From Halichondria panicea (taxonomy: Eukaryota; Porifera; Demospongiae; Suberitida; Halichondriidae), in the NCBI RefSeq assembly GCF_963675165.1, contig NC_087390.1:5197250-5261249 (forward strand): 64,000 nt of DNA. Reading direction: 5' to 3'. Shown here in pieces: positions 3,001 through 52,835 of the stretch. The first letter of the stretch is position 1, and every line of letters starts with the position of its first letter. A model generated the notes under the pieces. The model worked only from the letters and a program-made list of their open reading frames with translations. It ran no database searches and was not told the origin of the DNA. Made by a program: the position numbers and the translations under genes.

Positions 3001-5033
3001 TCTAGCATCAAAACCATACTAAAAAAAGCCTAGCATTTTGGTGGAATCAACTATATTGTTACCAAAGGTTGTGTTCTTGCACATGTGTTTAAATGCTATT
3101 TACACATCCGGCTTCCTCCATACAACACGACAGGATCATCCATTAACACTGTGTGAACGAAACCCCAGCTGGCTTGTTCGAGCCGACTCGACAATACATA
3201 TCGATCACGGTCAAACACAAGCAAGAAACTGAAATCCCACAAACACTAACCACCGCTTCCCTTCCCAGAAGACTGGTAGTAAATAACAGTATGTGAGTGG
3301 GTGTACGGGTGGCATTGTGTGGGTGTATGGATAGGACACACCTATAAGCTGGACAAGGGAAGTGAGTGGGTGTACTGGCTCTAAGAGGAACAACGAGTGG
3401 AAGTAAGGGTGGTATTGAGTGGGCGTAATGGTGACCCCACCTTGAGTCTGGGGTTGAACAATGGAGGGCAGTGTACTGGGAGAGGTAGAGGTACTATTGT
3501 TGTCGAGGCATTGCTAACCAGTTTAGTATTGTGGAATAAACAACCACACATTTGAGTTAGTGGAGGAGTCAACTTAAGCCACTTAATTCACTGTACAGGA
3601 AAACCTGTATAAGGTAAGCTATACAGAACATAAGCAACTGCAGAGTGACCACTAACCTAGTATGCAGGGAAATTGCTCTAAAGTGAGCTGCACAACGCGA
3701 CAAGTACAAGCAACAGTGTCTGGTTATTATTGTACACAGGGAAACATGCTCTCCAAGATGGTTGCGTGTGTGTGTACTGACAGTAGGCTATTAGTGAGAA
3801 GGTCTATTCAGGTCTGTTTAATGGTTGCTATGAGAGATGCAACCACACTGTATTCAAGCAACTTTAGCACTTAAAATATTCACACTGTTCTAGACAACAA
3901 TCAATTGGCTATTCCTCGCATAATGGTTACTATAATTATTGGTCCAAAACCAAAAGTGCACTTAGATCAATTTTCTAAGTTAATACGGTCACTAATGAGA
4001 TTTTAAAGTGCTAGGGAAATTACGGAATGGGCTCAGCCAGAAACAATTCATAAACTTAGACCTAAGTCAAAACATAAATACATTCATAGAGACTGGGTTA
4101 GAGTTAGACAACTGTGAATTATTATAGTGAGGTTACTGAGAAACATACACTAAGTTACGAGACAAGAAGTCGATCAGTCTAACCACAATAAGACTATCAG
4201 CACTTCCAATCAGCTAACAGTTTCAAAAATTGAGAAGACCTAGGAACAAAGCAAAAGGGAATTGAATTAAGTGTTGGGAATTTCTGGGGCTGGTGCACTT
4301 GGAAGAGTTGATCAGGCAGCTTATCTCGGGTAGAGACTAATGTTTAGACTTAAGAACGTTACAACTCTAAGACTTTGAGATACACGGTTGGAAATATACA
4401 CACGAGAAAGTAATCTGGACGCAAACCCTTCAAAAATCACAGAATTAGAACCAGCTCAGAATCGCGTTATAGAAACGAATGAAATTTGATACCACCATAT
4501 CTGAGCTCAATCAGCTGTTCTATTATAATACAGTGTGTGCAAGGATAACTCACGTCACTCAGTCTCCCATGCTGGACCTACAGAAAGAGGAAAGAAGCAA
4601 ACTATAGTATTATTAGTTCAGGATAACTTTTTAATAGCCTTGTATAATTATTAATAAGCTCTGACAATCTTGGTTGTATGCATACACACTGAAATGCAAG
4701 CAGGACCCTTGCTGCATATTAAAAGCAAGCCCATATAATTAATGCTCAGCTAAAATTAACATGTGCTTGTGCTAATACCATAAATACAGATGTAAACAAT
4801 AATTATGCGGCCCTCACCCTGTCAACGCAAGCAAGATGACACTTTGCAAAAGCCACAGCATCTTCTTCACTCTCAAATAGCTGAGATAAGCTTGGAGCTG
4901 ATGGAGCTGTGCACATCTCTTGCACCACACAGCAATTACAACTTCTGTGGAGCAGCAGCACAATGGCCAGCAGTAGAAGCAGCTTCATTTGGAGAAGATA
5001 CATTTGCAGTCTACTCTTCTTGCATGCAGACAC
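81..5033 (-). CDS. 5' part of a Cys-rich/FN3 receptor-family gene (runs off the left edge)
   Basis: Two exons are supported. Exon 1 (4818-5033) starts with a hydrophobic, Leu-rich signal peptide (an inner Met before KLLLLLAIVLLL is an alternative start), followed by an acidic stretch and a CxxxC pair (CHLAC), and ends at an AGG|GTGAGG donor. A 75-bp phase-0 exon (81-155), with acceptor CCTCCAG and donor GAG|GTGAGA, encodes 25 residues including PVWPSL and a single Cys. It has the same length and spacing as exon 3 of the gene at 6595 (SPWPSL) and the 62780-62854 exon of the right-hand kinase gene (YPLWPA), which is why I join the two. A mini-exon probably lies in the 4.6-kb gap but I could not place it. 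Whether the gene ends as a kinase or as a soluble protein cannot be seen here. Function is unknown; the paralogues suggest an extracellular receptor part. Confidence 0.6.
156..4817. other. Long intron of the left-edge gene, with low-complexity patches
   Basis: This 4.6-kb stretch lies between the two supported exons of the minus-strand gene. I see no convincing exon in it on either strand. It holds a CA-rich low-complexity tract at about 820-890 and a degenerate GTGGGTGT-type G-rich tract at about 3290-3430. Open frames here are short, lack splice consensus at useful positions and have no recognisable domain. One undetected mini-exon of the host gene is expected. Confidence 0.4.
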
Positions 5034-29862: not shown

Positions 29863-32800
29863 GTGTGTATTCCAGCTATAACTGCTCAACGGTTGCAATG
29901 CGACGAAAACTAACAGCTTCTATAGGCTTCTAGCCACGTTCTCTTGGATTTTGATTCGTGGATTAGCAAACTAAAGCTTCTTTCTCGAGTTATGGCTAGT
30001 TTGACTCACATTGAAGGCTGTTGCAGTCTCTTCAGAATCTTTCATAGCATCATCTGTCCGCACAAACTTTCTATTCAACATATGAGTTAGCCTTGCACTA
30101 AAGCGCTAGCTTTTTGTTAGCTACAATACTCAGAAAATATCTGTTAAAACAGCTAGCTAGCAGTAGCCATTTGTGAAATTGATCTCTTTGGACACACCCT
30201 TTAATTATTCCTGTGGATGTAATGCGCATGCGCGCTCATTCCCCATGATATCCAAGATCCAGATCCAGATTCTCCTGGCAGAATCATCTTTGTCTTGAGG
30301 GCCTGGTAAGCCACAAAACACTACCATATAACAATATAGATAACAATATGCATGTACACAGGTCTTTTCTTCTTAGATATTATATACACTGAACTACAGA
30401 TCCTGGAAGAATCAATTTTCTTCTTTCTTGAGGTCCTGGTAAGCCACATAATACAATAAATAACAACAATAGATGCATGTAAATAAGTCTTTTCTTCTCA
30501 GTGACTTTATATAGATAAGCTAACTTTAATATAAAATTCATTATAGATAACACTCTAATACTTTTGAGCGAAAGCAAAAACATGGCGAGAGGCATTAGCA
30601 CAGCGCCAGCTTGAACACTAGTTATATCAGTAAATTGCCTACAAATATTTGGCTTACAAATATTTACGGCACAAATGTATGTGTGCAAAAAACATATTGT
30701 ATTAGAACGTTAGTGGTCCTTCTGTACACTATACCCTCCCTACATCTTCCCTTCATCCTCACCTCAGGAAGCCAGCAATGAGTACTCTCACCTTGACCCC
30801 CCCCAGAAGGGAGTGGAGGCAACCAACGAGAAACAGGATGAGGAGGAAGACCCGTACATGGAACTAGGGGAGCTGGAGGCTAACGACCTCATGCAGTTTG
30901 CCTACCAGATCGCCACTGGAATGGTGAGAGATAGTTGAGTTAAAACGGCTGGGCTTCCATATGTATATGTCGTCACCACTTAAGTTATGGGTAAAATCAA
31001 ACTCCTTGTCAGGTTCCGTTGCATGCATAGCATACCTTAACACGCAACTGTAATGAATGTGCCCTAGCTGCATGCATGCATGCATGCATGGTATATTACA
31101 TGTGAATCTTCAACTCACAATTTAACGTACGAGCACAGTGGAAAATGTTTCGGGATTCTTATCAATTCCTTTCTCTCGATATACACATGCAGGAATATCT
31201 TGCCAGTCTAAACATAGTGCATCGCGACCTGGCCTGTCGTAACATCCTGGTTGGTGAGGACAAGAATCTTAAGATCACTGACTTTGGTCTCTCCCGAGAG
31301 GTAGAGGAAGTGTACGTGAAGAAGACACGAGGTCGCCTGCCCCTCAAGTGGATGGCTCTTGAATCTATCAATGAAAGAGAGTTCTCCACCTCCTCTGATG
31401 TGTGGTCCTTTGGAGTGGTCCTTTGGGAGATTGGAACACTGGGTAAGTACAGTTTATTTCCTTGCCAATTTGCCAGCATCTATATATCTAGCGTGTCAGT
31501 GGAACAACCTGCATGTATACCAACGTTAGCACGTACGTATATAGTGGCACACTGTATGTCTTTGATATTTGGGCATAAATCCAAACTCTTTTAGCGTTTT
31601 TATACTGTGGTCGCAATGTACAAAAGTGTTTGCCTTATCTAAAGACAACACGATCAAAATTAATGTCTACATGATTAATGCCTATATAGTACCACTCTTA
31701 TTTGAAAGCACCGCCAAATGCATATAAGTTGAGCTTGTATTCACTAAATGCACTGACTCATTACTGTAGGTGGCTTCCCCTACCCAACCATCAGCAACAC
31801 TGATCTCCTCATGATGCTAAAGCAAGGCTATCGTCTCGAAAAGCCAGACAACTGCGCCCCTCAAGTGTGAGTTATATACAAGTAACGTAACGCATGAAGT
31901 AGTGCAACTGCCACCTATAAAATGAAAGCACCGCAGGTGCTGATGCCTCGGTGAAGATGCCAAAGCTACATAACATAAAGCTACTAATAATTTTGCTGCA
32001 TGCAAAAACTCACAGAATGGGTAATGATCGACCATTATTATTGTTAAAAACGATCTATGCCAAAAGTTCAAGTCTAAAATTAATGGCTGCATTAGCAGAG
32101 CCTTGCAGCTCTCTTCTCACTCTTGCAGCTACCAATAGCTAGCGTTTTAGTGCAGAGCTAACTACTAAGTAGAGTAGCAACACTCGGTAAACAAGTTTGG
32201 CTACGTGCTCTTCTGAAAAAACTGCAATGGCATTCCAAGTAAGCAAAACTAGGTATAACTCGAGAACAAAGCATTATTTTGCAAATCCACGAATTAAAAT
32301 CCAAGTAAACATGACTAGAAGCCTATAGAAACTCTTACTTGCACTTGATTCATCCTTGAGCAGCTGTAGCAGTCTACACAGACAGACAGACAGACAGACA
32401 CACAAACACACTACCGTATACCTCACTTGCGCATGCGCACCGAGGCATAATAATCGATGTGGCTATAGAACATGCTAGAACATACATCAATAGATTATGC
32501 TATACCATTGAATTGTGTACACTGCAATCACTTTTTGTTTGTACAAGTAGCAATATCATAAACAACTATAATTATGTGCAATTCTCGTATCCTATAGATA
32601 TTACTATTAGGAACTCTCTGCACATACAGGTATGAAGTGATGCTTGAGTGCTGGAACGAGCATCCTATCGATCGTCCCACCTTCACAAAATTGCGCAGCA
32701 AGTTCAGCGATATGCTCCTAGCAACCACAAGTGATACGTACATGATCCTCGAAGTTGATGACCAGAAGGTCTACTACACGGTGGCAGATGATGATGAAAA

Positions 32801-33380
32801 AAGAGAAAGAAGTGATAGCAGCAGTTCTTCAGATAGTGACTCGAGTATCAAGAAATCGAAAAGCAAGGAGATTAAAAAGCCAGTGTGGTCAAAGCCAGTC
32901 AATCCTTATGTTGATACACCTGCCAGTCGATTGGAGCCAATTACTGAGTACGCTCAGGACGATGATAATGTGGTGACCGTCGAACAACACGATACTTCTT
33001 CTTCGGACGAGGACGAATATGACAGAAGGGGAATTGAGAGTGCATATGTGGATCAACCTGCAATGCGTTCCGTTCCAAATATGTCAGATTCTAATTCCAA
33101 TGAACCTCAAAATGGGCATGTTTTAAGTTCCGAGGATGGTGATCGCCATATGAGTACCGGAGTCCCGATTTCTCTGCTCACTGACAATAAACCCACCCAG
33201 CACACGCCGGTCACACACCACAGCAAGTCAAACCCCTACGTTGATTCCCCAGGCACTGGACAGCTGTTGCCTGACCCGCCGAAATACGAGAATGAGATTG
33301 TTATCGATTCTTCTCGAATGAAACCTCTGAGTGAGGAGTTGGGCCTAATGGATGGTGGGGACACTGGTACCGTACTATAA
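17046..33380 (+). CDS. Receptor tyrosine kinase with Cys-rich/FN3 ectodomain and split kinase domain
   Basis: Thirty-one exons keep frame to 1,729 residues: 17046-17271, 18213-18304, 18490-18534, 19770-19916, 20055-20129, 20352-20441, 20635-20686, 20801-20988, 21244-21370, 23153-23263, 23340-23425, 23524-23631, 23897-23963, 24168-24472, 24894-25271, 25555-25691, 25809-25971, 26096-26188, 26402-26737, 26953-27036, 27335-27422, 27652-27785, 28011-28121, 28360-28516, 28802-28992, 29110-29352, 29547-29648, 30768-30923, 31193-31442, 31770-31866, 32630-33380. Order: signal peptide, Ser/Gly-acidic linker, CxxxC exons, about six FN3-like domains with an RKKR site, TM (about 1001-1035), kinase (about 1085-1512). 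Visible: glycine loop [12 protein letters not shown], Lys1130, HRDLACRN (Asp1376), DFG (Asp1394), [11 protein letters not shown], all consistent with an active enzyme. Exons 26-28 form a roughly 165-residue kinase insert with a coiled coil. The 217-residue tail repeats a YVDxP motif. Ligand unknown. Confidence 0.88.
17445..17943. mobile_element. 499-bp element with 28-bp perfect terminal inverted repeats, in intron 1
   Basis: The sequence at 17445-17472 (core GAGTTAGAGGGATAGGAAAC) recurs as an exact reverse complement at 17916-17943. Nothing inside reads as a transposase. Part of the interior (about 17705-17815) also resembles sequence upstream of the two VioB-like genes (about 45875-45960 and 51585-51690), so it belongs to a dispersed family. 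No clear target-site duplication was seen. Confidence 0.6.
22368..22417. repeat. GT-rich microsatellite in an intron of the kinase gene
   Basis: Imperfect (TG)n with a terminal run of G lies inside the 1.78-kb intron 21371-23152. The rest of that intron shows nothing recognisable. Confidence 0.8.
29765..30250 (+). repeat. Dispersed repeat with a (GTCT)n core, forward copy
   Basis: It begins ATGCCTCGAGGCG, runs into a GTCT microsatellite (29817-29861), then a unique body including CTTCTATAGGCTTCTAG and CTCGAGTTATGGCTAG, and ends near a GCGCATGCGC-like stretch. A diverged copy lies in reverse orientation at 32180-32455. Both are in introns of the kinase gene. The ends are not defined well enough to name a transposon class. 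Confidence 0.65.
30254..30505 (+). repeat. Imperfect tandem duplication of about 120 bp inside an intron
   Basis: Two diverged units share AGATCC, then TCTTGAGG..CCTGGTAAGCCACA, then TCTTTTCTTCT.AG. Each unit therefore ends a short open block with a donor-like CTG|GTAAGCC and is followed by a polypyrimidine-AG acceptor-like end. It lies in the intron between kinase-insert exons 29547-29648 and 30768-30923. Confidence 0.5.
31917..32095 (+). repeat. Dispersed repeat copy shared with 46770-47000
   Basis: The stretch starting AAATGAAAGCACCGC and continuing through GGTGCTGATGCC, TTTTGCTGCATGCA and GATC.ATGCCAAAAGT matches the region at 46770-47000 in the same order. It lies in the last intron of the kinase gene. 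No coding content; element class unknown. Confidence 0.55.
32180..32455 (-). repeat. Dispersed repeat with a (GTCT)n core, reverse copy
   Basis: The reverse complement of this block matches the element at 29765-30250: ATGCCTCGG end, (GTCT)n core (here CAGACAGACAGACAGACA), TTCTATAGGCTTCTAG and CTCGAGTTATACCTAG. It sits in the last intron, so the two inverted copies bracket exons 30768-30923, 31193-31442 and 31770-31866. Confidence 0.65.
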
Positions 33381-33961: not shown

Positions 33962-35988
33962 ATGAAAGGAAACCAATCATATGGAGTATCACCAAATAAA
34001 GGTAGAAATGAACAACGTGCACAAGAAGGCATTTATGATGAAGTCGAGATGCCAGAGCTTCACACGTATAAGAAGACATCTAAAAGTGAACATGTACAAA
34101 GCTCTCGCCAAGAAAAATGGCACTGTGGACACAATGTGCTTTGGGGGATAATGGCAACTATCGTGGTGGTGCTGATTGCCATTCTTGCATCCATTACTCT
34201 GATTGTAGCATCAATGGACTTTCAAGCCCTCAGGGACTTTCAAGGTAAGTCATTTGGAGTAAAATGAATGGATGTAATTGATGCAGTGCTGCAGTTGCAT
34301 GCCCCGAGCTACATGAAGTCGAGAATGGATCAACCACTATCACTCCTGGTCTAGTACATCGTGGGATTGGATCAAAAGTGGATTACTCGTGCGACCAAGG
34401 CTATGTTCTTGTCGGAATTGCCACAAGGCATTGTGTTTACCGATACTACACGGAAATGTTAGGATTTTGGAATGGCAGTGCTCCGTCCTGTCGAGGTAAG
34501 GTGCTTGTCATTATTATATATATATCCCAACACAAAATTATACAGTACGATGCCCACTACTGGACCCAGTGGATCATGGAAGCATGATCCTTAGCTCAAG
34601 GAACATTGCCCCTGTGATTGCAACGTACTCTTGTCAGAATGGTTATCTCCTCATCGGCCCTAAGCAGAGAGAATGTGTATACTCCAGTGGCAAGGAAATT
34701 GGACAATGGAGTGGAATCATGCCATCATGTAAGTTTACAGTCGGTGTTGCAACCATCATTGGATGCTGCATGTGCATGAATGCATAGTTTATGGTGTTGA
34801 TGCATATGCATGCAGTCACTCCATTCATATAGGTCGGATTGGGAGCTTAATTGACTGCAACCAGTCAAATTGCAGGCTCACGACTGTTGATTGCCGCTAT
34901 CGTCAAGGTTACTGTAGCATTAGCTGCAATAGTTCAATGCCTTTTTCCTGTCACCAGGCATCTTTTGATTGTCCACAGAGAGGAAGTGGTTGCTACATAA
35001 ACTGTACGAGTGAATATCAATATGAATGTCTCGGGACTAATACACTATGTGGAGAAAGTGGTGACTGCATTGTCGATTGCCTTGGTCGCTATTCTTGCCA
35101 ATACTCCAACTTTTCCTGTTCTATAAATGGACAGTCTAGAATGAACTGTGCTGGTCAGCAAGCATGTCAATATTCACGATTTACTTGCTCTGAAGGTAAG
35201 CAAGCACTAGTTATCTTTACATGTTATGTGACTGTGATGTAATCTAGGTAAAAATATACACAGGTTATTCTGGAAAGAGCAGCCTAGTACACTGTAGTGG
35301 TTCATCTTCATGTAATAGTGCTACTTTGAGTAACACTCAACAAATAAAGTGCAGTGGCTCTTCGTCATGTTACTATGCCAGTTTGAGTAACGCTCACCAA
35401 CTGGAGTGCAGTGGCTTTTTTTCATGTTACTATGCCGGTTTGCTAAATGCTGAAGAATTGCTAAATTGCAGTGGATCATCATCATGCCAAAGTGTGAATA
35501 ACATTTCTACAGAACAACTACATTGCAGCGGTAATTCCGCTTGTATTAACAGCAGAGGAGATCTGAGTGCTACTTCAATGAACTGCAGTGGATCATCATC
35601 ATGCAGAAGCTCAACGTTCGAAATTGGCCAGGTGAATTGCAATGGGGCATCATCATGTTCATCAAGTACAATAAACTGTCCTTCAAATAGCATGGCATGC
35701 GATGTGAGCTGTTCTGGTATCAACTCATGTCAATCTTTAAACATTTATTGCCCTAACGACGCAGACTGCAATGTACATTGCAACAACAGAGGATCATGTA
35801 ACAATGCTCGCATATATTGTCCAACTGGAAACTACTTCTGCAATATACATTGTTCTAATCCACTGTCCTGTGCGAGCTTGCAAATCACCAACTCACAAAA
35901 CGTCAACCTACGTTGCTGTGGAGATCGGTCATGTGTTGGGGCAAACGTGTCACCAACGAGCACAACGAACTGTATATACACTATATAA
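33962..35988 (+). CDS. Type II membrane protein: cytosolic YDEV motif, TM, two sushi domains, Cys-ladder repeats (copy 1)
   Basis: Five exons give 584 residues: 33962-34244, 34295-34495, 34546-34728, 34833-35195, 35264-35988. I chose the ATG at 33962 because the tandem copy starts the same way (MKxN). The N-terminus has no signal peptide; residues 1-58 are polar with tyrosines in YDEV (Y25) and HTYKK, then a TM at about 59-83, so the long C-terminal part is extracellular. Exons 2 and 3 each encode a sushi/CCP-like module (four Cys, final W..C). Exon 4 is a Cys-rich segment of about 120 residues. Exon 5 encodes CSGSSSC-type units spaced about 16-19 residues, a probable disulphide-laddered solenoid. 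Sushi domains usually mediate binding; the YDEV context suggests SH2 docking after phosphorylation. No homologue recognised; a pattern-recognition or adhesion receptor is one inference. Confidence 0.85.
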
Positions 35989-38533: not shown

Positions 38534-40755
38534 ATGAAACGAAACCATGGTTTCAAAACAGATCAAGGCACAAATGATCAGAGCCGGCAACAAGAAATAT
38601 ATGAAGAAATCGACATGCCGGAGCTTCACACGTATGAGAAGACACCTAAAAGTGAACATGGAATTGTGCAAAACTCTCGGGAGCAACAATGCAAATTTTG
38701 CTACCGAATGTTTTGGGGGATTATGGCAACTATTGTGGTAATTATTGCCATTCTTGCATCTATTACTCTGATTATAGCATCAGTGGACTTTCAAGCCTTC
38801 AAGGAATTTCAAGGTAAGTCACATCTTAAGTAAAGAAAAAAATAATGTTATTGCAGTTGCATGCCCGGAGCTACCTGAATTCGAGAATAGATCAATCACT
38901 ATCACTCCTGGGCTAGTACATCGTGGGATTGGATCTACAGTGAATTATTCATGCAACCAAGGCTATTTCTTCGTGGGAATAGCCACAAGGCATTGTGTTT
39001 ATTACCAAGATTACTACACTTCACAGGGAGTAGATTTAGGTTTGTGGAACAGGAGCTCCAACTTGTAGAGGTAAGATTACGCAAGTGTAATTATCTTGGT
39101 GCTATTAACCTTAATTATTTATAGTGCAATGCCCAACACTTGACTCAGTGGATCATGGAAGTGTGATCCTCAGCTCAAGGAACATTGCCCCTGTGATTGC
39201 AACGTACTCTTGTCAGAATGGTTATCTCCTTATCGGCCCTAAGCAGAGAGAATGTGTATACTCCAGTGGTGAGGAAATTGGACAATGGAGTGGAATCATG
39301 ACATCATGTAAGTTTAGGCAGTAATCTGTGATGTTGCAACAAGCATTGATTCAATGAGAATACTGCATGTGAACATATAATTACAGTACAAAATAACCAT
39401 AATTATGTTCATATATATAGGTGAGATTGGGAGCTTAATTGATTGCAACCAGAAAAATTGTAAACTCACGACTGTTGATTGCCGCTATCGTCAAGGTTAC
39501 TGTAGCATTAGCTGCAATAGTTCAATGCCTTTTGCCTGTCACCAAGCATCTTTTGATTGTCCACAGAGAGGATTCCGAAGTGGTTGCTACATAAACTGTG
39601 CAAGTAAATATCAATATGAATGTCTTGGGACTAATACACTATGTGGAGAAAGTGGTGACTGCATTGTCGTTTGCCTTGGTCACTCTTCTTGCCAATACTC
39701 CAACGTTTCCTGTTCAAGAAATGGACAGTCTAGAATTAACTGTGCTGGCCAGCAAACGTGTCAATATTCACAATTCACTTGCTCTGAAGGTAAGCATGCA
39801 TGAGCTCTCTTTACATGTCATGTGAGTGATGTAATCCAGATATATATACACAGGTTATTCTGGAAGGAGCAGCCTAGTACACTGTCGTGGTTCATCTTCA
39901 TGTAATAGTGCTACTTTGAGTAACGCTCAGCATGTGGAGTGTAGAGGTTACTTTTCATGTAATAGTGCTACTTTGAGTAACGCTCAGCATTTGGAGTGTA
40001 GAGGTTCATCTTCATGTAATAGTGCTACTTTGAGTAACGCTCAGCATTTGGAGTGTAGAGGTTCATCTTCATGTAATAGTGCAACTTTGAGTAACGCTCA
40101 GCATTTGGAGTGTAGAGGTTCATCTTCATGTAATAGTGCTACTTTGAGTAACGCTCACCAACTGGAATGCAGTGGCTCTTCGTCATGTTACGCAGCCAGG
40201 TTGCTCAATGCTGAAGAATTGCTAAATTGTAGTGGATCATCATCATGCCAAAGTGTGAATAACATTTCTACAGAACAACTACATTGTAGCGGTAATTCTG
40301 CTTGTAGTTACAGCAGAAGAGCACTGAGTGCTACTTCAATGAACTGCAGTGGATCATCATCATGCAGAAGCTCAACCTTCGAAATTGGCCAGGTGAATTG
40401 CAATGGGGCATCATCATGTTCATCAGGTACAATAAACTGTCCTTCGAGTAGCATGTCATGTGATGTGAGCTGTTCTGGTCTCTACTCATGTAATTCTTTA
40501 ACAATTAATTGCGCTAACAACGCAGACTGCAATGTACATTGCAACAGCAGAGGATCATGTAGTTATGCTCGCATATATTGTCCAACTGGAAATTACCTCT
40601 GCAATATACATTGTGCTAATCCACTGTCTTGTGTGAGCTTGCAAATCACCAGCACACGTATATATAAAGTCAACCTACGTTGCTGTGGAGATCGGTCATG
40701 TGTTGGGACAAACGTGTCACCAACGAGCACAACGAACTGTATATACACTGTATAA
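38534..40755 (+). CDS. Type II sushi/Cys-ladder membrane protein, copy 2, with a frameshift in exon 2
   Basis: The exon plan matches copy 1: 38534-38813, 38857-39070, 39125-39307, 39421-39789, 39854-40755. The 93-residue N-terminal exon has YEEI (Y23), which fits the classical Src-family SH2 preference, then a TM at about 59-82. Exon 2 has one extra base relative to the sushi pattern near 39051, just after the conserved Trp-Asn. As read, it meets TAG at 39066-39068 before the final sushi Cys. All other exons are open and keep frame with copy 1. So this is either a recently broken gene, an allele or an assembly indel. If exon 2 were skipped the frame would not be kept (214 bp). Exon 5 is 177 bp longer than in copy 1 because of extra tandem repeats. 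The extracellular role is unknown. Confidence 0.75.
39883..40167 (+). repeat. Five 57-bp coding tandem repeats (19-residue units)
   Basis: Units start at 39883, 39940, 39997, 40054 and 40111; each encodes C-R-G-S-S-S-C-N-S-A-T-L-S-N-A-Q-H-L-E or a close variant. Units 3-5 are nearly identical at DNA level, which indicates recent expansion. Copy 1 of the gene has only about two diverged equivalents. The period stays a multiple of three, so frame is kept. Confidence 0.9.
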
Positions 40756-42211: not shown

Positions 42212-45200
42212 TTAATTCTGCCAATCATAGTCAAAAATGGGTCCACAAGTTTGCTGAGGCTGCCCAGGTAGGGAAGAAGGCATTTCCATTGACATCAGCT
42301 TCTTGGCTTGGATTTGCATGCTTGACATAATAGGAATAGAGTCTTTAATAGCATCTGGTTGTCCATCGAAAGCTGCTTGAAGTGACCTTAATAGAGATCG
42401 ATACACGTCGTGAAAAGTTTTTGCTTCTTGGTATAAATGAGAATTTTTGAGGATATTCTTTGATGACGGGTTGTCTTGCATCGGCCATACGCCTTCAGGT
42501 GTAAACTCAATCTCAGCACCTCGGAAATCATAAAAGTACTGCTCGTGATCATGCAATACTCGTAGGTGATGTTTGCATGCCAGCATTTCAAATTTGAAGA
42601 AATGAGCAAGTTCGGAACTCTTTAAATAAGTAGGGTCTCTCTGTTCAGTTCCTTCCCCCTCCTCGATTATCACGTTAATAGCTTCAATCGCATCTTCAAT
42701 GCTGCTCACAGTTCTGAGTTTAATACCATCTTCATGCGCTGTCCAAGGCCAGGTCATTTGCTTGGCATCTTTGTCAAAGAAAGTGTCTCTTTCTTCCTCA
42801 TACAGTTCAATCATGCACTGTTTAATGTTCTTATAAAATGTTCCAATTGTAAGCATATGAGACTTTACTTCTTTCTCCTTGTTAGATAAAGTATCTTCGT
42901 AAACAAGTTCATTTGGGAATTCTATCATCATGAACACATCAGCAATATATTTGGGAGATGCTTTCTGTAGTGTTACATTGAGACCAGGTAACACTCCTCC
43001 CGGTATCTTCCCAGGGTAAGATGGGGCAGCCTGTGCACTGTCTATTACTGGCCGTCCACCGATAGCAATGAGCAGGTTGGCCGCTTGTACCATGTGAAGC
43101 ATTTCTTGCATTACAACTGAGCGTATGATTTCGTATGCCTCTTGATTGTACCCGTCCTTGATAGAGTAGAGAGCAGTTAAGTATGGAGGAATAGTGGAAA
43201 ATTCCAATTGTAGAGCTGTTTGTAAGTTCTCTTTCAGCTGTCTTTTTGAGCAGTGAGAGCTTGTGTACCAACTAGGAAGAGAATTGCTATCGTCATTAGA
43301 TAGTTTTAGAACTGTGGAAAGCAGAGCTTCAATATACGAATCTGTTAAATGATCTCGATTCTTTAACACATCAATGGTACGTCTAATGAACAAATCATTT
43401 TTGCATTCTTTGCAATCACTGAGAGTTTGGGTATGTGATTGTGCTGTGACCATGGCAACTTTAGAAAAGGATTGTGCTATTTCTGATTCTGCAAGCGTTG
43501 GCAGTGAATCTCCTAAACCATCCAAAAGCATGGCTACATACTCGTTTTTAGGGTAACTCTTGATCCAAGACAGCGATTTCTCTATCACCAGTCTTGTATT
43601 GTCCTTTCTCAACTTCTCACGATAAAATAAATAGGATCTATTGCAGAAACTGCTTGCTTCATATTGCTTCTCAATCATAGTATCCCAATTTAGAGGGTGG
43701 TCTTCAGTTCTCAACCATTCTTTGATCATTTCTTTTTTTGTTGGTGAGAGATCTCTAGACGCTGGCATGTAGCCTGGGTGGTTGATATCCATAGACATTG
43801 AGAAAAGAATCATATCGATATTTCGTGGTCTTGTTACAGCTTCATAATCGCCGAGTTTCAGAACGCTACTCATTGCTGGATACAGTTTCTGGTACTGAAA
43901 AAATATTGGCTTTACATGCGTGTCCCAGAAATATGGTTTCTTGTATTTCATATGGCTCCACACAAGGAATGACAATGTGTTTCCTACATTTACTGAACAC
44001 TGCTGGCTACAATTCATCTTCTCACATTGCTCACAAATACAGTAGTTAAATACGAACACCTGGCCGTCAGTATCTTTTCTTGGAGTTCCAACATCGCCTG
44101 CTACGAAATAAAATACGGCAATACCATCTTCACCTGTTGTCTGTGTGCGGGTATACTCAAGGTCAGAGTTTGTAGCATCGCCATTGGGGCTAACGTCACA
44201 GAGGGATAGGGACAGCTTCTCACTCGGCTGAACGCCATAGTGTCTCACTTTTATTCTAGCTTCAGCAGAGTCTCCTTTTTCGAGCCTGTAATTTGTATAG
44301 TCCATTGGGGCTACTAAGTACAGATCCTCACGGAGAATAATATAAACACAGTTTGAAGTGGACAAAGTGTTATTGCTTTTATCGCAGATTGTGTATCGAT
44401 CACCTTGCTTCAAAGTATTTTCAATAGGCTCTGCCTTAAAAAACACTGCAACAACTTTCCGTTTTTGAATAAACTTCAATTGCTGATCAGTAAGTTCAAA
44501 ATCTTGAATGCCCGATGTCATTTTGTACCAGTCTTTTTCCATGTAAGGAAGCTCACCAACAAGTTCAACTGTAACTTGATCATCCACAAGAATACATACA
44601 AACAGTCGGTAGAGGTGACAAAGTTCTCCGTTGGTATCGATCGGTATAGAGTTGCTAAAATCAATTGCCAATGTTGACCCAAACACATCAAAGTAGGTCG
44701 TAGTAGTGAAACTGAAAATAAGTTCACACAATGGGCTCCAAGATGGAACAGGTAAAGGAAAATTATTAATGGCCTTCATAACTCTGTTCTCGGGAAATGA
44801 TAAGGACTCACCAGCTGACGAAATACCGATACTGCCAACTATTTTGCCGTAGAGAAACCAAGGCTCTTCTGGTATCTTGTTGTAATTATATAGTGTTAAC
44901 ATTATTGAGAGAGTGTATCCATTTTCCTTGTCCTTGTGTGTGCGTTCTTTCAATGATTTGAGAGCATTGGAAGTCAACTGTTTAGACCATTGAACATTGA
45001 CAAGTTTTGAAACACTGTGGGCTGCTAGGCATACGGTTTTAGTGTGAGCACATTGCTTATCTGGATCTGTAGAGTTGGCTTGACGAAACCAGACATCCCG
45101 CTCGAGTACGGAAGGAACAAAATCTCCAATAAAAGCATCATTGCTTAGCATACTCCAATTTACACCCAACTTCATCCCATAAACACTGGGAGTCATTTCT

Positions 45201-46155
45201 TGATCTGGATCAAGCGCAGTTAATTTTGGAAGAGAGGACTCGGGATTAATTACGATCGATTCACCAATGATTTCATCTTCAATAGCTAAACCATTTTCTA
45301 GTACTACAGAAGTGACTTTGCAGTCTATCAGTGTAAAAGCGTTTGTCCCTCCTGGGTTAAATTTTTCCACAATTTCTCCTTCTTTTTTGTTTGTTGGTCC
45401 ATTGTTCAAAGTGGCTATATCTGCTCTGAATCGACCCAAAAAGTTAATCCTTGGTTTTTCTAAGAAGGATGCACTTGCTAGTTGAAACCTGTAATTTAAG
45501 CATAACAAAGATGAGTATTTGCCAGGCTTCTGTGTGACCATGGTCTATATATTAGTGGCTTCTCTCTATGCATGCAGACATTATACTAAGAAACAGATGT
45601 ACCATCGAATAATTACATCTACCCGGCTTTTCCTGCGGTTGCAATTAAGGCTCCCAAGCTGATGCTCAAAGAATTACCTGGCCAATGGTATACTACAGTA
45701 TAGACAAATGAAGCAGTCTAAAAAGTGTTGCGATATGTACTGTGTAAAAACCACTGACATTGTGATCATGCATTTGGAGCAGCTCACTCCTGTTAAAGAT
45801 CTACATACATTATATTTTGCTTACAAGTTAAAGCAACAGCTTGAAGCTATTAACTTTCCATGTCTTCCTTCACTAGATGTGGTCAGTCATTAGCATGTAC
45901 TATACACTATTGCTGAAATAAATCCTGCTTTGAGGCAACACAACTTTCTTCTTTCGAGCGATTAGCCACTAGCCTAATCTACTGTCCATATCGCATTTGC
46001 ATGTGAGGTGTAGATTTATAATAGATCATAACTACAGAAGACTCAGTGTATAACAGATATAGTTTCTAGCTATTGATACCTCCAAAGCCACAATCATTAG
46101 CAATAATAACTTACCAGATAATGAATAAATAGAGCCAGGGAGTGCTTGTCTTCAT
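42212..46155 (-). CDS. Secreted VioB/RebD-like protein with ferritin-like domain (copy 1)
   Basis: Two exons give 1,105 residues: 46115-46155 (ATG plus hydrophobic start) and 42212-45488. The donor CTG|GTAAGT and acceptor TTACAG join TG to G, making MKTSTPWLYLFIIW followed by FQLASASF, a signal peptide. The large open frame could start inside the intron, but only the spliced start gives a signal peptide, and the tandem copy has the same structure. KPRINFLGRF near the N-terminus resembles the start of bacterial VioB/RebD/StaD proteins. The C-terminal part has the ferritin-like pattern: Glu776 in LEFSTIPPYL, then Glu809-x-x-His812 in QEMLHM, with later acidic and His helices (IELYEEE, ELAHFFKFE). 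Bacterial relatives couple two indole-pyruvate imines in violacein and indolocarbazole synthesis. The substrate here is unknown; length is similar to the family. The protein ends CGPIFDYDWQN. Confidence 0.8.
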
Positions 46156-46213
46156 AGTGCACCTCGAACATCAAGCATGCAAAAGGCAACAGTAGCTAGT
46201 CCAGTGAACGTGA

Positions 46214-46225
46214 TGCGCATGCACA
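46214..46225. promoter_or_regulatory. NRF-1-like site upstream of VioB-like copy 1
   Basis: TGCGCATGCACA lies about 60 bp upstream of the ATG at 46155 and differs by one base from the palindrome at the same place before copy 2. The flanking AACGTGA and CAATAAGAT are also conserved between copies. Confidence 0.45.
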
Positions 46226-46279
46226 ATAAGATTACAATCACAGCAACCGTACGTTCTGGCAAGCTAAAAGACGGAATAA

Positions 46280-46531
46280 GGACAAAGGGTCAGAGAGATC
46301 GAGCGGGGAGTCTTCACACCCCTAGTCCTCTCAACCTGGGGAGGAATGGGCAAGGAAGCAGCAACCTTCTACAATAGGCTCGCTGACATGATAGCATCAA
46401 AGGAGACAGAAACTGAATCCCCCCTATACCCAGCTGTAATGGGATGGCTTAGATGCAGGGCTGAGGCTATCATTTGTATCCATTCGCTCCTCAATCGTGT
46501 GCATTCGAGGAAGCCACTCGTCTCTGCATAA
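46280..46531 (+). mobile_element. C-terminal relic of a retroelement reverse transcriptase
   Basis: The open frame reads VREIERGVFTPLVLSTWGGM, then GKEAATFYNRLADMIASK and MGWLRCR, before a TAA. This matches my memory of the conserved C-terminal end of LINE-like or related reverse transcriptase polyproteins in invertebrate genomes. A stop immediately precedes the fragment in frame, so only about 83 codons remain. It lies just upstream of VioB-like copy 1 and is absent from the same place before copy 2, so it inserted after, or was lost after, the duplication. Confidence 0.6.
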
Positions 46532-46769
46532 ACCAGTCTACACGGACAATATCACTCTTGTATCTCAGGAGAGGCGTGTTCCCCCTGAATATGTAATCAT
46601 GCAATCGAACTATGACACTTTCTTTGTTTATTTCCTCATTTTCAACTTTTGACTGTTTTTATTGTTACAGTAACGCATGTATACAATTATTACGGATTAT
46701 AAATAATTATTATCACATTGGTTGTTCGCCTATCCGTTATAAAAGCAAAAACTCGGCCTGGGATTGAGG

Positions 46770-47000
46770 CTAGTAAAATGAAAACACCGCGGGTGCTGAT
46801 GCCCGCGGTGAAGGTGTCAAAGCTAAAGCTATAGCAATACACATATTATATCATGATGAACATTTTGCATAAATTTTGCTGCATGCACAGAACCAGAATC
46901 GCAAAGAGTAGGTATAATGATATCGAATGATTGTTTTATGAACGATCGATGCCAAAAGTCCAAGTCTAAAGAACACGTATAGGTAACAGTATTTTGGAAT
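46770..47000 (+). repeat. Dispersed repeat copy shared with 31917-32095
   Basis: It starts AAATGAAAACACCGCGGGTG and contains a strong stem (CACCGCGGG / CCCGCGGTG, 8-base loop) at about 46785-46812. It continues with TTTTGCTGCATGCA and CGATGCCAAAAGTCCAAG. The copy at 31917 has the same order but a weaker stem. Confidence 0.55.
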
Positions 47001-47684
47001 CCTTCATTTGATTTCAGGGTGTTTTTATACAAACAGCTGTGGTGTGTATACAAATAAAGAGCTCTATAATTATGGTTGTGCAACATTTAAACAAATCGAA
47101 GTTAATAGCTTTACTTATACATGTATAGGCCTGTTCATATTATACTCTATACAGAGTTCATAATTATGCATAAGTTGTTCATTTCTACAGTATTAACGTT
47201 AACGTTATAATTATATACATCAAATATCTTGAAAGTTGGCATAGTTGTCAAAGGAGTCCAAGTAGACCAGAGTAGCATCAAACAGATCCTTGTAGTTGTC
47301 CTGAGGGGAGTGGCACATTGATGCTCATACAAAGTGTGTGGTGGAGCATACATTGTTGTTATGCATGATGAGGAACTGAGTCAATTGATGAAAAAAATTC
47401 CCCCTATATACCGTGAGTCGTAGGGGCTGTGTCCCTTGCTTGTTTTCAGCGCTTAGTTTTGAGGACCCCCGAGATATTATATATGCATGGCGTGGATACT
47501 TCAAGGCTGCCAAAAACAAATTCCAGCCATTGTTCGAAAAAGGAAAGGGATTTCATGAGGGTATTGGATGTGGCTGGGCGGTTACCAAAGGGGAAAGAAG
47601 GAACCAAAAATGGGTCAGTATTGATCATTGTAACCTCCTCACTATCCCGTTTATAGACAGAGATAGGCAAGTGTGTATAGATAT

Positions 47685-47727
47685 GGGGCGAGCATGATGT
47701 AATTGGGTATTACATCATGCTCGCCCC
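47685..47727. repeat. 19-bp perfect hairpin with 5-base loop
   Basis: GGGGCGAGCATGATGTAAT (47685-47703) pairs exactly with 47709-47727; the loop is TGGGT. It lies about 150 bp downstream of the stop codon of VioB-like copy 2, which is transcribed towards it. It may be the collapsed ends of a small element or a 3' structural RNA feature. Confidence 0.7.
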
Positions 47728-47872
47728 AAACATGCATGCTTTGCACTCTTATACTAGACTAGATGTTTTGACCTGGTAACTGTCATGTCTATGCAGATCA
47801 CATGTGTATAATTCATAGCTAAATTAAAAATTACTGGAGGTATAATCATAGTAAAATTCATGCGCATTCCTC

Positions 47873-50800
47873 TTATTTCTGCCAATCATAATCAAAAATA
47901 GGTCCACAAGTTTGCTTAGGCTCCCCAGGTAAGGAAGAAGGCATTTCCATTGCCATCAGCTTCTTGGCTTGGATTTGCATGCTTGACATAATAGGAACAG
48001 ACTCTTTAATAGCATCTGATCGCCCATTGAAAGCTGCTTGAAGTAACCTTAATAGAGATCGATACAAGTCATGAAATATTTTTGCTTCATGGTATACGTG
48101 AGAATTTTTGGGGATATTCTTTGATGACGGGTTGTCTTGCATCGGCCATATGCCTTCAGGTGTAAACTCAATCTCAGCACCTTGGAAATCGTAAAAGTAC
48201 TGCCCGTCATCATGCAATATTCGTAGGTGATGCTTGCATGCCAGCATTTCAAATTTAAAGAAATGAGCAAGTTCAGAACTCTTTAAATAAGTAGGGTCTC
48301 TCTGTTCAGTTCCTTCCCCCTCCTCGATTATCACGTTAATGGCTTCAATCGCATCTTCAATGCTGCTCACAGTTCTGAGTTTAATACCATCTTCGTGCGC
48401 TGTCCAAGGCCAAGTCATTTGCTTGGCATCTTTGTCAAAGAAAGTGTCTCTTTCTTCCTCATACAGTTCAATCATGCACTGTTTAATGTTCTTATAAAAT
48501 GTTCCAATTGTAAGCATATGAGACTTTACTTCTTTCTCCATGTTAGATAAATCGTTTTCATAAACAAGTTCATTTGGGAATTCTATCATCATGAACACAT
48601 CAGCAATATACTTCGGAGATGCTTTCTGAAGTGTTACATTGAGACCAGGTAACACTCCTCCCGGTATCTTCCCGGGGTAAGATGGGGCAGCCTGTGCACT
48701 GTCTATTACTGGCCGTCCACCGATAGCAATGAGCAGGTTGGCCGCTTGTACCATGTGAAGCATTTCTTGCATTACAACTGAGCGTATGATTTCGTACGCC
48801 TCTTGATTGTACCCGTCCTTGATAGAGTAGAGAGCAGTTAAGTATGGAGGAATAGTGGAAAATTCCAATTGTAGAGCTGTTTGTAAGTTCTCCTTTAGCT
48901 GTCTTTTTGAGCAGTGAGAGCTTGTGTACCAACTAGGAAAAGAATTGCTATCGTCATTAGATAGTTTTAGAACTGTAGAAAGCAGAGCTTCAATATACGA
49001 ATCCGTTAAATGATCTCGATTCTTTAACACATCAATAGTACGTTCAATTATGAACAAATCATTTTTGCAATCACTGAGAGTTTGCGTATGTGATTGTGCT
49101 GTGACCATGGCAACTCTAGAAAAGGATTGCGCTATCTCTGATTCTGCAAGCGTTGGCAGTGAATCTCCTAAACCATCCAAAAGCATGGCTACATACTCAT
49201 TTTTAGGGTAACTCTTGATCCAAGACAGCGATTTCTCTATCACCAGTCTTGTATTGTCCTTTCTCAACTTCTCGCGATAAAATAAATAGGATCTATTACA
49301 GAAACTGCTTGCTTCATATTGCTTCTCAATCATAGTATCCCAATTTAGAGGGTGGTCTTCAGTTCTCAACCACTCTTTGATCATTTCTTTTTTTGTAGGT
49401 GAGAGATCTCTAGACGCTGGCATGTAGCCTGGGTTGTTGATATCCATAGACATTGAGAAAAGAATCATATCGATATTTTGTGGTTTTGTTACAGCTTCAT
49501 AATCGCCGAGTTTCAGAACGCTACTCATTGCTGGATACAGTTTCTGGTACTGAAGAAAAATTGGTTTTATGTGTGTGTCCCAGAAATATGGTTTCTTGTA
49601 TTTCATATGGCTCCACACAAGGAATGACAATGTGTTTCCTACATTTACTGAACACTGCTGGCTACAAATCATCTTCTCACATTGCTCACAAATACAATAG
49701 TTAAATATGAACACCTGGCCGTCAATATATTTTCTTGGAGTTCCAACATCACCTGCTAAGAAATAAAATACGGCAATACCATCTTCATCTGTTGTCTGTG
49801 TGCGGGTGTACTCAAGGTCCGAGTTTGTAGCATCGCCATTGGGGCTAACGTCACAGAGGGATAGGGAGAATTTCTCACTCGGCTGAACGCCATAGTGTCT
49901 CACTTTTATTCTAGCTTTAGCAGAGTCTCCTTTTTCAAGCATATAATTTGTATAGTCCATTGGGGTTACTAAGTACGGATCCTCACTGAGAATAATATAA
50001 ACACAGTTTGAAGTGGACAAAGTGTTATTGTTCTTATCGCAGATTGGGTATTGATCACCTTGCTTCAATTTATATTCAACAGGCTTTGCCTTGAAAAACA
50101 CTGCAACAACTTTTCGTTTTTGAACAAACTTCAATTGCTGATCAGTAAGTTCAAAATCTTGAATGCCCGATGTCATTTTGTACCAGTCTTTTTCCATGTA
50201 AGGAAGCTCACCAACAAGTTCAACTGTAACTTGATCATCCACAAGAAGGCATACAAACAGTCGGTAGAGATGACAAAATTCTCCGTTGGTATCGATCGGT
50301 ATGGAGTTGCTAAAATCAATTGCCAATGTTGACCCAAACACATCAAAGTAGGTGGTAGCAGCAAAACTGAAAATGAGTTCACACAATGGGCTCCAAGATG
50401 GAACAGGTAAAGGAAAATTATTAATGGCCTTCATAACTCTGTTCTCAGGAAATGATAAGGACTCACCAGCTGACGAAATACCGATACTGCCAACTATGCT
50501 GCCGTAAAGAAACCAAGGCTCTTTTAATACCTTGTTGTAATTATATAGTGTTAACATTATTGAGAGAGTGTATCCATTTTCTTTGTCCTTGTGTGTGCGT
50601 TCTTTCAAAGATTTGAGAGCATTGGAAGTCAACTGTTTAGACCATTGAACATTGACAAGTTGTGAAACGCTGTGTGCTGCTGAGCACTCGATTTTCTTGT
50701 AAGCATTCTTGTTAGTACAATACTTATCTGGATCCGTGGAGTTGGCTCGACGAAACCAGTTATCACGTTCGAGTACGGAAGGAACAAAATCTCCAATAAA

Positions 50801-51897
50801 AGCATTATTGCTTAGCATACTCCAATTTACACCCAACTTCATCCCATAAATACTAGAAGTAAGTTGTTGATCTGGATCAAGCGCAGTTATCTTCGGAAGA
50901 GAGGACCCGGGATTAATCACAATCGATTCACCAACGATTTCATCTTCAATAGCTAAACCATTTTCTAGCACTACAGAAGTGACTTTAGAGTCTATCATTG
51001 TGAAAGTGTTTGTTCCTCCTGGGTTAAATTTTTCCACAATTTCTCCTCCTTCCATGATGTTCTCATAGTTTGTTGGTCCATTGTTCAAAGTGGCTACATC
51101 TGCTCTGAATCGACCCACAAAGTTTATCCTTGGTTTTTCTAAGAAGGATGCACTTGCTAGTTGAAACCTGTAATTTAAGCATAACAAACATGAGTACTTG
51201 CCAGGCTTCTGTGTGACCATGCGTGGTCTATATATTAGTGGCTTCTCTCTATGCATGCAGACATGGTCTAACCATATACTAAGAAACAGATGTACTATCG
51301 AATAATTACATCTACCCGGCTTTTCCTGCAGTTGCAATTAATGCTGCCAAGCTGATGCTCAAAGAATTACCTGGCCAATGGTATAGTATAGTAATCTTGA
51401 CAAAGAAAGCAGTCTAAAAAGTGTTGAAACTTTTCTTGACATAATTTAATATACTGTGCAAGAACCACTGACATTGTGCTCGTGCATTTGGAGTAGCTCA
51501 CTTCTGTTAAAGATTTACTACATACATTGTAGTTTGCTTCCAAGTTAAAGCAGCAGCTTGAAGCTATTAACTTTCCTGCCTTCACTATAGATGTGGTTAG
51601 ACATTAGCATGACTACTATATACACGTGAATATAAATTGCTGAAAAAAATCATGTTTTGAGGTTCAACACAACTTTCTTCTTTCGAGCGATTAGCCACTA
51701 GCCTGATCTATATATATATATTATACTGCTTTGAATGTGAGGTGTAGATCATATAGATCATAACTACAGAATTACGACTCAGAGTTGACTAGTGTATAGT
51801 AGATCTAGCTATTGATACCTCCAAAGCTATAATCATTGGCAATAATAACTTACCAGCAAATGAATAAACAGAGCCACCAGTGAGTGCTTGTCTTCAT
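47873..51897 (-). CDS. Secreted VioB/RebD-like protein with ferritin-like domain (copy 2)
   Basis: Two exons give 1,112 residues: 51854-51897 and 47873-51167, with the same splice phase as copy 1. The mini-exon encodes a hydrophobic start (MKTSTHWWLCLFICW) that continues into FQLASASF. The second exon is intact over 3.3 kb with no stop or frameshift, and most residues match copy 1, so both copies look functional. Ferritin-like residues are Glu783, Glu816 and His819; the C-terminus again ends CGPIFDYDWQK. Differences from copy 1 include a short insertion (YENIMEG) after the shared GPTN near the N-terminus and a changed Cys-containing loop (about residues 205-220). Both copies have a central Cys cluster (CICEQC, then two more Cys). 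Catalysis is inferred from the bacterial family only, and the reaction in this host is unknown. Secretion would place it in the ER/Golgi or outside the cell, unlike the bacterial enzymes. Confidence 0.8.
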
Positions 51898-51964: not shown

Positions 51965-52383
51965 ATAAGATACATTGGGCCAGACCTTTTCTCAGAGGGG
52001 GGAGGGGGAAGAGGAGAAACAAAAACGTTATGAGGCCATGCAAAAGTCGGAAATTGTCAGCTTTACAATTAAAGGCACTAAAAGAAAAGAAAATTATAAA
52101 TTTGTATGGTTTTTTGGTCATGAATTATGACTAAAATTAATTAGTAAAAATTATGCACTTCTGCTTATTGAGGAAGTTAGGGGTGTGTTTTCAATTAAAA
52201 TTCTATGAATATCATTATCATCAAATGCCTCAACCTGCTTGCGGAATAATAGCCTGAGAAACTACAAATTGACTTTGCAGGCCAGATGGAACAAAGTTAT
52301 TGAGTTTTTATGTCTAAATAGTCTGTCTCCATGTTGTTATTTTCTTCTAATTTTTTTCTGCAGACTCCTCCAAGTCTCCATCG

Positions 52384-52539
52384 CTGTCTCTGCTAAGGAA
52401 GTAAGGCCATACCAATGACCATCATGAGAGAATACACTGTGTACTACTGCAACTCTTCTCTCTGTCTCTGCTAAGGAAGTAAGGCCATACCAATGACCAT
52501 CATGAGAGAATACACTGTGTACTACTGCAACTCTTCTCT
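52384..52539 (+). repeat. Tandem duplication of a 78-bp unit
   Basis: Two essentially identical units (52384-52461 and 52462-52539) each begin CTGTCTCTGCTAAGGAAGTA and end near ACTGCAACTCTTCTCT. Near identity implies a recent event. No coding role seen. Confidence 0.85.
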
Positions 52540-52835
52540 CTGTCTTTAGCCCCGCCCCCCTTTCTGTTTGTAAATCAAAAATATGTTAGCTCTGAACTGG
52601 CTCATTTCATGACCTATAATCCTTATTCCAATGTGTTTAAAGATTGTCTTACTTTGTATTGATCTTATTATATATAGTGTAGTCCTTGTGTCTCTTGCAG
52701 ATTTATTTCGAAACCAGACTGCTAGACCTATATGAACACACGCAGGGTTTTTGGCATGCTCTAGCTTCATAAATGTTTGCAATCACAGGCTGTCAGCCTG
52801 TTTTTTTTGTTATGCACAACAAGTGGCTATTGGTT

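Follow-up and report, generated by a model that had tools for sequence, protein, structure and literature searches.

A multi-copy family of VioB-related ferritin-like proteins, probably of bacterial-type origin, in the genome of the sponge Halichondria panicea

Introduction

VioB is the iminophenyl-pyruvate dimer synthase of violacein biosynthesis, and the chromopyrrolate synthases RebD and StaD are grouped with it. In an extract of PMC9705886 it is described as an enzyme that carries heme b, has catalase activity and dimerises an imine. Here we analyse a stretch of 64,000 nucleotides from the sponge Halichondria panicea (assembly GCF_963675165.1, contig NC_087390.1, positions 5,197,250 to 5,261,249 of the forward strand; hereafter the window) in which two genes in tandem, A and B, encode proteins related to VioB. 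An earlier sequence-only reading had taken them for a pair of secreted VioB/RebD-like proteins acquired by horizontal transfer into an animal genome. We find that both are members of a genuine animal gene family, conserved and present in several copies, which is VioB-related along most of its length and is probably of bacterial-type origin.

Whether the animal or its microbes make the natural products of sponges is a long-standing question. The family is a concrete candidate for host-made chemistry, being host-encoded, intron-bearing, duplicated and placed in an assembly of megabase scale, and its sequence suggests that the animal may itself run VioB-type chemistry, in which two amino-acid-derived molecules are joined. 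A further point of interest is a group of split and fused VioB-like genes in bacteria, often linked to the ebo cluster, in which the four N-half proteins tested match no Pfam family above cut-off. Among the titles and abstracts listed in the literature searches, none describes a VioB-like family from sponges. The main text of PMC4784904 on prokaryotic genes in Amphimedon mentions no ferritin, violacein or dimer synthase, and the main texts of PMC13342648 (a compendium of horizontal gene transfers) and PMC10542158 (the Geodia barretti genome) make no mention of ferritin, while the supplements of all three may list the gene.

Gene structure and copy number

Coordinates are window positions and the splice sites were read from the sequence. 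Genes A (42212-46155) and B (47873-51897) both lie on the minus strand, are intact and have two exons apiece. In their common layout a short hydrophobic exon 1 is followed by a predicted phase-2 GT-AG intron and a single exon of 3.3 kb, which in both genes opens at a phase-2 ..TTACAG acceptor. The large open frame covers 1110 residues in gene A (42212-45544, minus strand) and 1154 in gene B (47873-51337, minus strand). The features are given below; residue numbers of the candidate metal ligands count from the first full codon in exon 2.

46115..46155, minus strand: gene A exon 1, 41 nt, ATG at 46155, hydrophobic N-terminus MKTSTPWLYLFII(W)
45489..46114, minus strand: gene A intron, predicted, phase 2, GTAAGT...TTACAG, 626 bases
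42212..45488, minus strand: gene A exon 2, 1091 full codons and stop
43697..45472, minus strand: gene A N-terminal VioB-type region, PRINF...YMPASRDLSP..., about residues 6-597 of exon 2
42581..43225, minus strand: gene A ferritin-like domain PF12902, candidate ligands E762, E795, H798, E856, E945 and H962
51854..51897, minus strand: gene B exon 1, 44 nt, ATG at 51897, MKTSTHWWLCLFIC(W)
51168..51853, minus strand: gene B intron, predicted, phase 2, 686 bases
47873..51167, minus strand: gene B exon 2, 1097 full codons and stop
49358..51151, minus strand: gene B N-terminal VioB-type region, limits carried over from gene A
48242..48886, minus strand: gene B ferritin-like domain PF12902, from Pfam

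On splicing in this manner, protein A has 1105 residues (start MKTSTPWLYLFIIWFQLASAS) and protein B has 1112 (start MKTSTHWWLCLFICWFQLASAS), with no stop in either except the terminal one. This bears out the two intact 3.3-kb coding exons of the sequence-only reading, whose right boundary, 51897, coincides exactly with the ATG of gene B; both motifs to which it had pointed, PRINF close to the N-terminus and Glu...ExxH towards the C-terminus, were found. Its claim of secretion holds with a qualification, namely that both proteins start with a hydrophobic segment and are probably secreted, the likely signal peptide having been assigned by eye.

The two proteins are 92.3% identical, and the duplicated segment of about 4.1 kb in which they lie is 91.7% identical and has the intron within it. 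The ratio of nonsynonymous to synonymous substitution rates (dN/dS) between A and B is 0.295, and as six more intact copies are present in the genome, the frames are not there by chance. PF12902 was matched at no fewer than eight places (at least 8) in the sponge genome, spread over five contigs of 6.5-18.1 Mb. All 8 copies lie in open frames of 1051-1154 residues, no stop falls inside any PF12902 match, and pairwise protein identity among them ranges from 44.3 to 93.4%. The near-intronless body that had been claimed for A and B is found throughout, as exon 2 is one uninterrupted large exon (whole-exon length of 1041-1112 residues) in all eight copies found. In 8 of 8 copies the same codon, eleven codons before PRINF, carries a candidate phase-2 AG acceptor. 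Five of the eight (A, B, C11a, C11b and C1) have a clear first exon that encodes a hydrophobic leader; that of C3b is possible and that of C6 only weak, and none was found for copy C3a. For 11 of the 28 sponge pairs dS was computable, the other 17 being not computable, and the Nei-Gojobori dN/dS of these 11 is 0.164-0.333; values below 1 are best read as purifying selection on the family.

A large uninterrupted exon is also what a processed retrocopy of an ordinary multi-exon animal gene would leave. The shared position of the candidate acceptor and an A-B duplication that carries its intron along speak against such a copy, as does the lack of any multi-exon parent among the PF12902 matches of the genome, 8 of 8 of which fall in the open frames described above. 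We have rejected this explanation as very improbable.

Genome setting

A bacterial-type protein with an almost intronless body could also be bacterial contamination or symbiont DNA. The host assembly, however, comprises 131 Mb in 39 contigs, and the contig in which the window sits is 6.5 Mb long. The A/B locus has a GC content of 38-40%, in line with its surroundings, both genes have a GT-AG intron, a tyrosine-kinase exon is present in the same window, and the eight copies are distributed over five contigs. On these grounds and on the animal marker genes that follow, contamination is rejected, its probability being negligible.

Among the marker genes, 10 Wnt matches were found at exon level. 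A serine-type cathepsin site pattern was found at 8 places in the sponge genome against 2 for the reversed-pattern control, and six of these 8 read CGASYAF or CGSSYAF and lie within Peptidase_C1 (cathepsin-family) matches. The six silicatein-type (serine active site) cathepsin-like places are at 656-668 kb of contig C2, 200-205 kb of C6 and 25 kb of C13. An in-frame stop occurs in 5 of the 6 silicatein-type family matches, which may be intron read-through or decay, and the ordinary Cys active site was seen in the 4 examined of the five strongest cathepsin-like matches. A silicatein catalytic site with serine is mentioned in an extract of PMC10282587. These markers point to the genome of a siliceous demosponge, in agreement with the animal genome that the sequence-only reading had assumed.

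Relationship to VioB

The sole Pfam match of A and B is PF12902, the very family proposed for checking by the sequence-only reading, with 191.9 and 191.2 bits (gathering cut-off 22.3) and expectation values (E) of 1.9e-56 and 2.9e-56, respectively. On the other hand, the VioB equivalog model TIGR04492 (NCBIfam) gives only 13.1 and 8 bits, where its cut-off is 1250, so that the distance from VioB is large and, by this model, the sponge proteins are not the same enzyme. The VioB that was used as reference (locus L111) is authentic, as it scores 1855.6 bits with the same model. When a 63-row profile (61 rows from bacterial loci, 2 from the window) was aligned with this VioB by hhalign, the probability was 99.84 (E 3.8e-30) over 785 columns, whereas the control, VioA of the same cluster, gave 0.04. 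The N half alone reached a probability of 99.0 (without a separate control) and also gave two collinear hidden Markov model hits. From these profile alignments the resemblance to VioB is real homology, collinear over most of the protein and at superfamily distance.

It follows that the claim of VioB/RebD-like proteins has to be divided. The VioB-type two-domain architecture stands over nearly the full length and the identity with VioB does not; as judged from their predicted sequences, A and B are VioB-type two-domain proteins and not VioB itself. RebD and StaD belong with VioB; PF12902 was present in 4 of the 5 actinomycete loci considered while seeking these two enzymes. Among solved structures, Caulobacter 3hl1 shares the ferritin-like domain with the sponge proteins (E 3.4e-8 with a single query and 3.5e-24 with the profile), but it has 317 residues and its alignment is confined to the ferritin-like part. 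Weaker profile matches were obtained to 9viw (2.9e-7) and 1nf4 (2.9e-4), both named bacterioferritin. A search of solved structures with the N-terminal domain gave nothing better than E 0.46.

Bacterial relatives

With a profile of the N half, a scan of 84,980 species genomes yielded 141 confirmed relatives, and the analysis covered the best 80 of them. These 80 are spread over many bacterial phyla and are 24-29% identical to the sponge proteins (tblastn, N half). In gene layout, 57 of the best 80 of 141 loci are split into two adjacent genes, 19 are fused and 4 have the N half only. Among plasmid records, 8 of 169 cover at least 80% of the query, the best being adjacent genes annotated as 'hypothetical protein' and 'ferritin-like protein'; the plasmid regions that were read contain four split pairs and two cases with the ferritin-like gene alone. 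Four bacterial N-terminal proteins gave weak matches to the VioB model in corresponding places (E 2.4e-7 to 0.016), and no Pfam family was above cut-off in the 4 bacterial N-half proteins tested. A viral or phage origin was also considered and rejected: the scan of viral contigs for close relatives gave two pattern matches of which neither was confirmed, tblastn against phages was empty and PHROGs gave weak matches (E 0.0088 and 0.27).

The split pairs (for example of Azospirillum, Gloeothece, Mycetohabitans and Aureibacter) are homologous and collinear with the sponge proteins in both halves at 26-39% identity and have the same six candidate ligands, but they consist of two genes, often beside an ebo cluster, where the sponge has one. 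In the fused version (19 of the 80 loci) both halves follow in the same order in one polypeptide, with 30-34% identity to the sponge proteins. Examples are Streptomyces (L095 and L096), Undibacterium (L084 and L092), a member of Pyrinomonadaceae (L038) and SZAS-82 (L063). Over the matched span the fused bacterial proteins have 881-981 residues, and exon 2 of the sponge genes, taken whole, has 1041-1112. EboA-F were called by BLAST with queries from Aureibacter and Mycetohabitans. The fetched flanks contain at least 4 ebo genes in 23 split and 4 fused loci, making 27 of the 80; among the 52 loci with at least 17 kb fetched, 23 have them. The ebo cluster is implicated, in an extract of PMC6282210, in the export of a scytonemin precursor and in the resistance of Pseudomonas to nematode grazing. 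The nearest bacterial kin among the genomes searched is a separate split/fused group and not the violacein enzyme.

Some loci show further arrangements. In three Oxalobacteraceae loci (L036, L039 and L046) two VioB-like split pairs stand in tandem, the second one strongly diverged, and the Pseudoduganella violacea genome of L036 has true VioB as well. On a contig of an Acidobacteriota bin (L033), the N-half gene (1738-3456) is not directly followed by the ferritin-like half; the start of a second N half (3648-4400) follows it instead.

Conserved residues

None of the six residues E762, E795, H798, E856, E945 and H962 varies among the full-length rows (21 of 21). When every row filled at the column in question is counted, the figure is 42 of 42, except for E795 with 43 of 44. 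The Glu, ExxH, Glu, Glu, His candidate metal-site pattern of PF12902 is present, and the same six residues can be seen by eye in 3hl1 and VioB. These residues match the pattern of a ferritin-like iron site and we infer from the alignment that they are candidate ligands.

The sponge proteins contain 15-21 cysteines (1.4-1.9 per 100 residues), whereas the mean of the 19 fused bacterial proteins is 0.6 per 100 residues. Cysteine is found in at least 6 of the 8 sponge copies in 14 columns, and in all 8 copies in ten of these. For 13 of the 14 columns, the 19 fused bacterial rows have no cysteine at all, although in four of these 13 the bacterial rows are gapped in 17 to 19 of 19 cases; the remaining column, position 56, does have it, in 13 of the 19. 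Such sponge-specific cysteines would fit the disulfides of a secreted protein. N-glycosylation sequons, by contrast, are just slightly denser in the sponge proteins (0.29-0.66 per 100 residues) than in the bacterial ones (mean 0.40).

Origin of the family

To place the sponge copies, the concatenated N and ferritin-like domains of 59 rows were used, made up of 19 fused rows, 32 split rows (chosen by the author from 61) and 8 sponge rows, with VioB omitted. The 61 split loci comprise 57 from genomes and 4 from plasmids; the four loci with the N half only, some of them near contig ends, were excluded. One change separates fused from split genes in this tree, and the sponge copies stand on the fused side of it (Shimodaira-Hasegawa-like approximate likelihood ratio support 98, quick search). 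The tree of the ferritin-like domain recovers the same set of 27 (support 96) and places the sponge weakly with Symploca L102 (89). The distribution of relatives over many bacterial phyla in the bacterial, archaeal, viral and plasmid collections searched makes horizontal acquisition of a bacterial-type gene likely.

Several results weigh against this acquisition. In the approximately unbiased test, a tree with the sponge outside the bacterial fused clade was not rejected (p 0.551), and it came out ahead of the free quick tree by 2.37 log units. The stem leading to the sponge copies is long, at 1.43 changes per site, and they share little identity with bacterial sequences, both in tblastn of the N half (24-29%) and in alignment A3 (26-39%). 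When the N-domain tree was rooted on VioB, the sponge and L063 came to lie close to the root, but there was a long-branch warning, because of which this rooting was set aside for the sponge position. Also, PF12902 genes are placed next to lodA/lodB in fungi in an extract of PMC4417212, and PF12902 is named, without confirmation, among the vesicle proteins of Schistosoma haematobium in an extract of PMC7563238, from which mentions the family would not be unique to the sponge among eukaryotes.

These results would suit an ancient eukaryotic family inherited by vertical descent, which fungi also have and which was kept in sponges and lost elsewhere: the sponge rows can fall outside all 19 fused bacterial rows, the stem is long and the domain is reported in fungi. 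The distribution over bacterial phyla, as far as the bacterial, archaeal, viral and plasmid collections show it, speaks against such descent, as does the large exon that is uninterrupted in all eight copies found. An uninterrupted large exon of this kind is unusual for an old animal gene. We regard vertical descent as somewhat unlikely. Since nesting within bacteria was not recovered, the direction of transfer rests on distribution and not on nesting. As to the horizontal transfer of the sequence-only reading, the nearest kin in the collections searched are bacterial, and the tree places the sponge on the fused side but does not show it nested among bacteria.

Possible function

We lean, with moderate confidence, to the explanation that a fused bacterial-type enzyme was acquired long ago, came to be secreted, was duplicated and serves in the oxidative coupling of imino or keto acids. 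In this explanation a sponge ancestor probably took up a fused bacterial-type gene, which would have gained roughly twelve new conserved cysteines and, at its 5′ end, a signal-peptide exon together with the phase-2 intron, and would then have multiplied by duplication. The ferritin-like half may form an iron site from E762, E795, H798, E856, E945 and H962, with the N half completing the active site. Such an enzyme, active either outside the cell or within the secretory pathway, could couple small aromatic substrates that resemble imino or keto acids, or oxidise them, with oxygen or peroxide as oxidant, and its role would most likely be in chemical defence or pigment. The proposal that aromatic imino or keto acids are coupled or otherwise handled oxidatively comes from the ferritin-like site pattern taken with the described chemistry of VioB.

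It may be noted that the partner genes which the sequence-only reading had suggested looking for did not appear: one query each for VioA and VioE, run on the sponge genome at E 0.01 with no positive control, matched nothing, and the same holds for EboE. Such empty results would count against synthase chemistry. The protein may instead be a structural or iron-handling secreted protein, such as a peroxidase, a catalase-like or an iron-binding protein, which has kept the fold and lost the dimer-synthase reaction. Such a role agrees with the empty partner searches, with the distance of the sequence from VioB and with the catalase activity and heme b of VioB itself (PMC9705886, extract). However, the N-terminal half that is common to VioB is conserved, and the Caulobacter PF12902 protein 3hl1 aligned to the ferritin-like part only. 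We hold a non-synthase role to be a serious possibility, if not the one that we would expect. Returning to the coupling enzyme, its furthest extension would be that dimeric aromatic compounds of alkaloid type are made extracellularly by the sponge and not by its microbes, by means of eight secreted imine-coupling enzymes acquired from bacteria, and this we consider unlikely.

Neighbouring features

The tyrosine-kinase exon of the window is at 31106-31594 on the plus strand (PF07714, E 3.5e-37) and is followed by a Ser/Asp-rich open reading frame at 32598-33380, also on the plus strand; the two presumably belong to one receptor tyrosine kinase. Cys-rich repeat frames of the CSGSSSC type neighbour A and B at 34733-35988 and 39835-40755 (plus strand). 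DUF7640 gives weak matches at 35248-35988 (25.9 bits) and 39835-40755 (17.2 bits), both below its cut-off of 28.1 bits. Upstream of gene B, a stretch of about 80 bases (agagacagagagaagagttgcagtagtacac...) occurs twice in tandem at about 52370-52545 on the minus strand.

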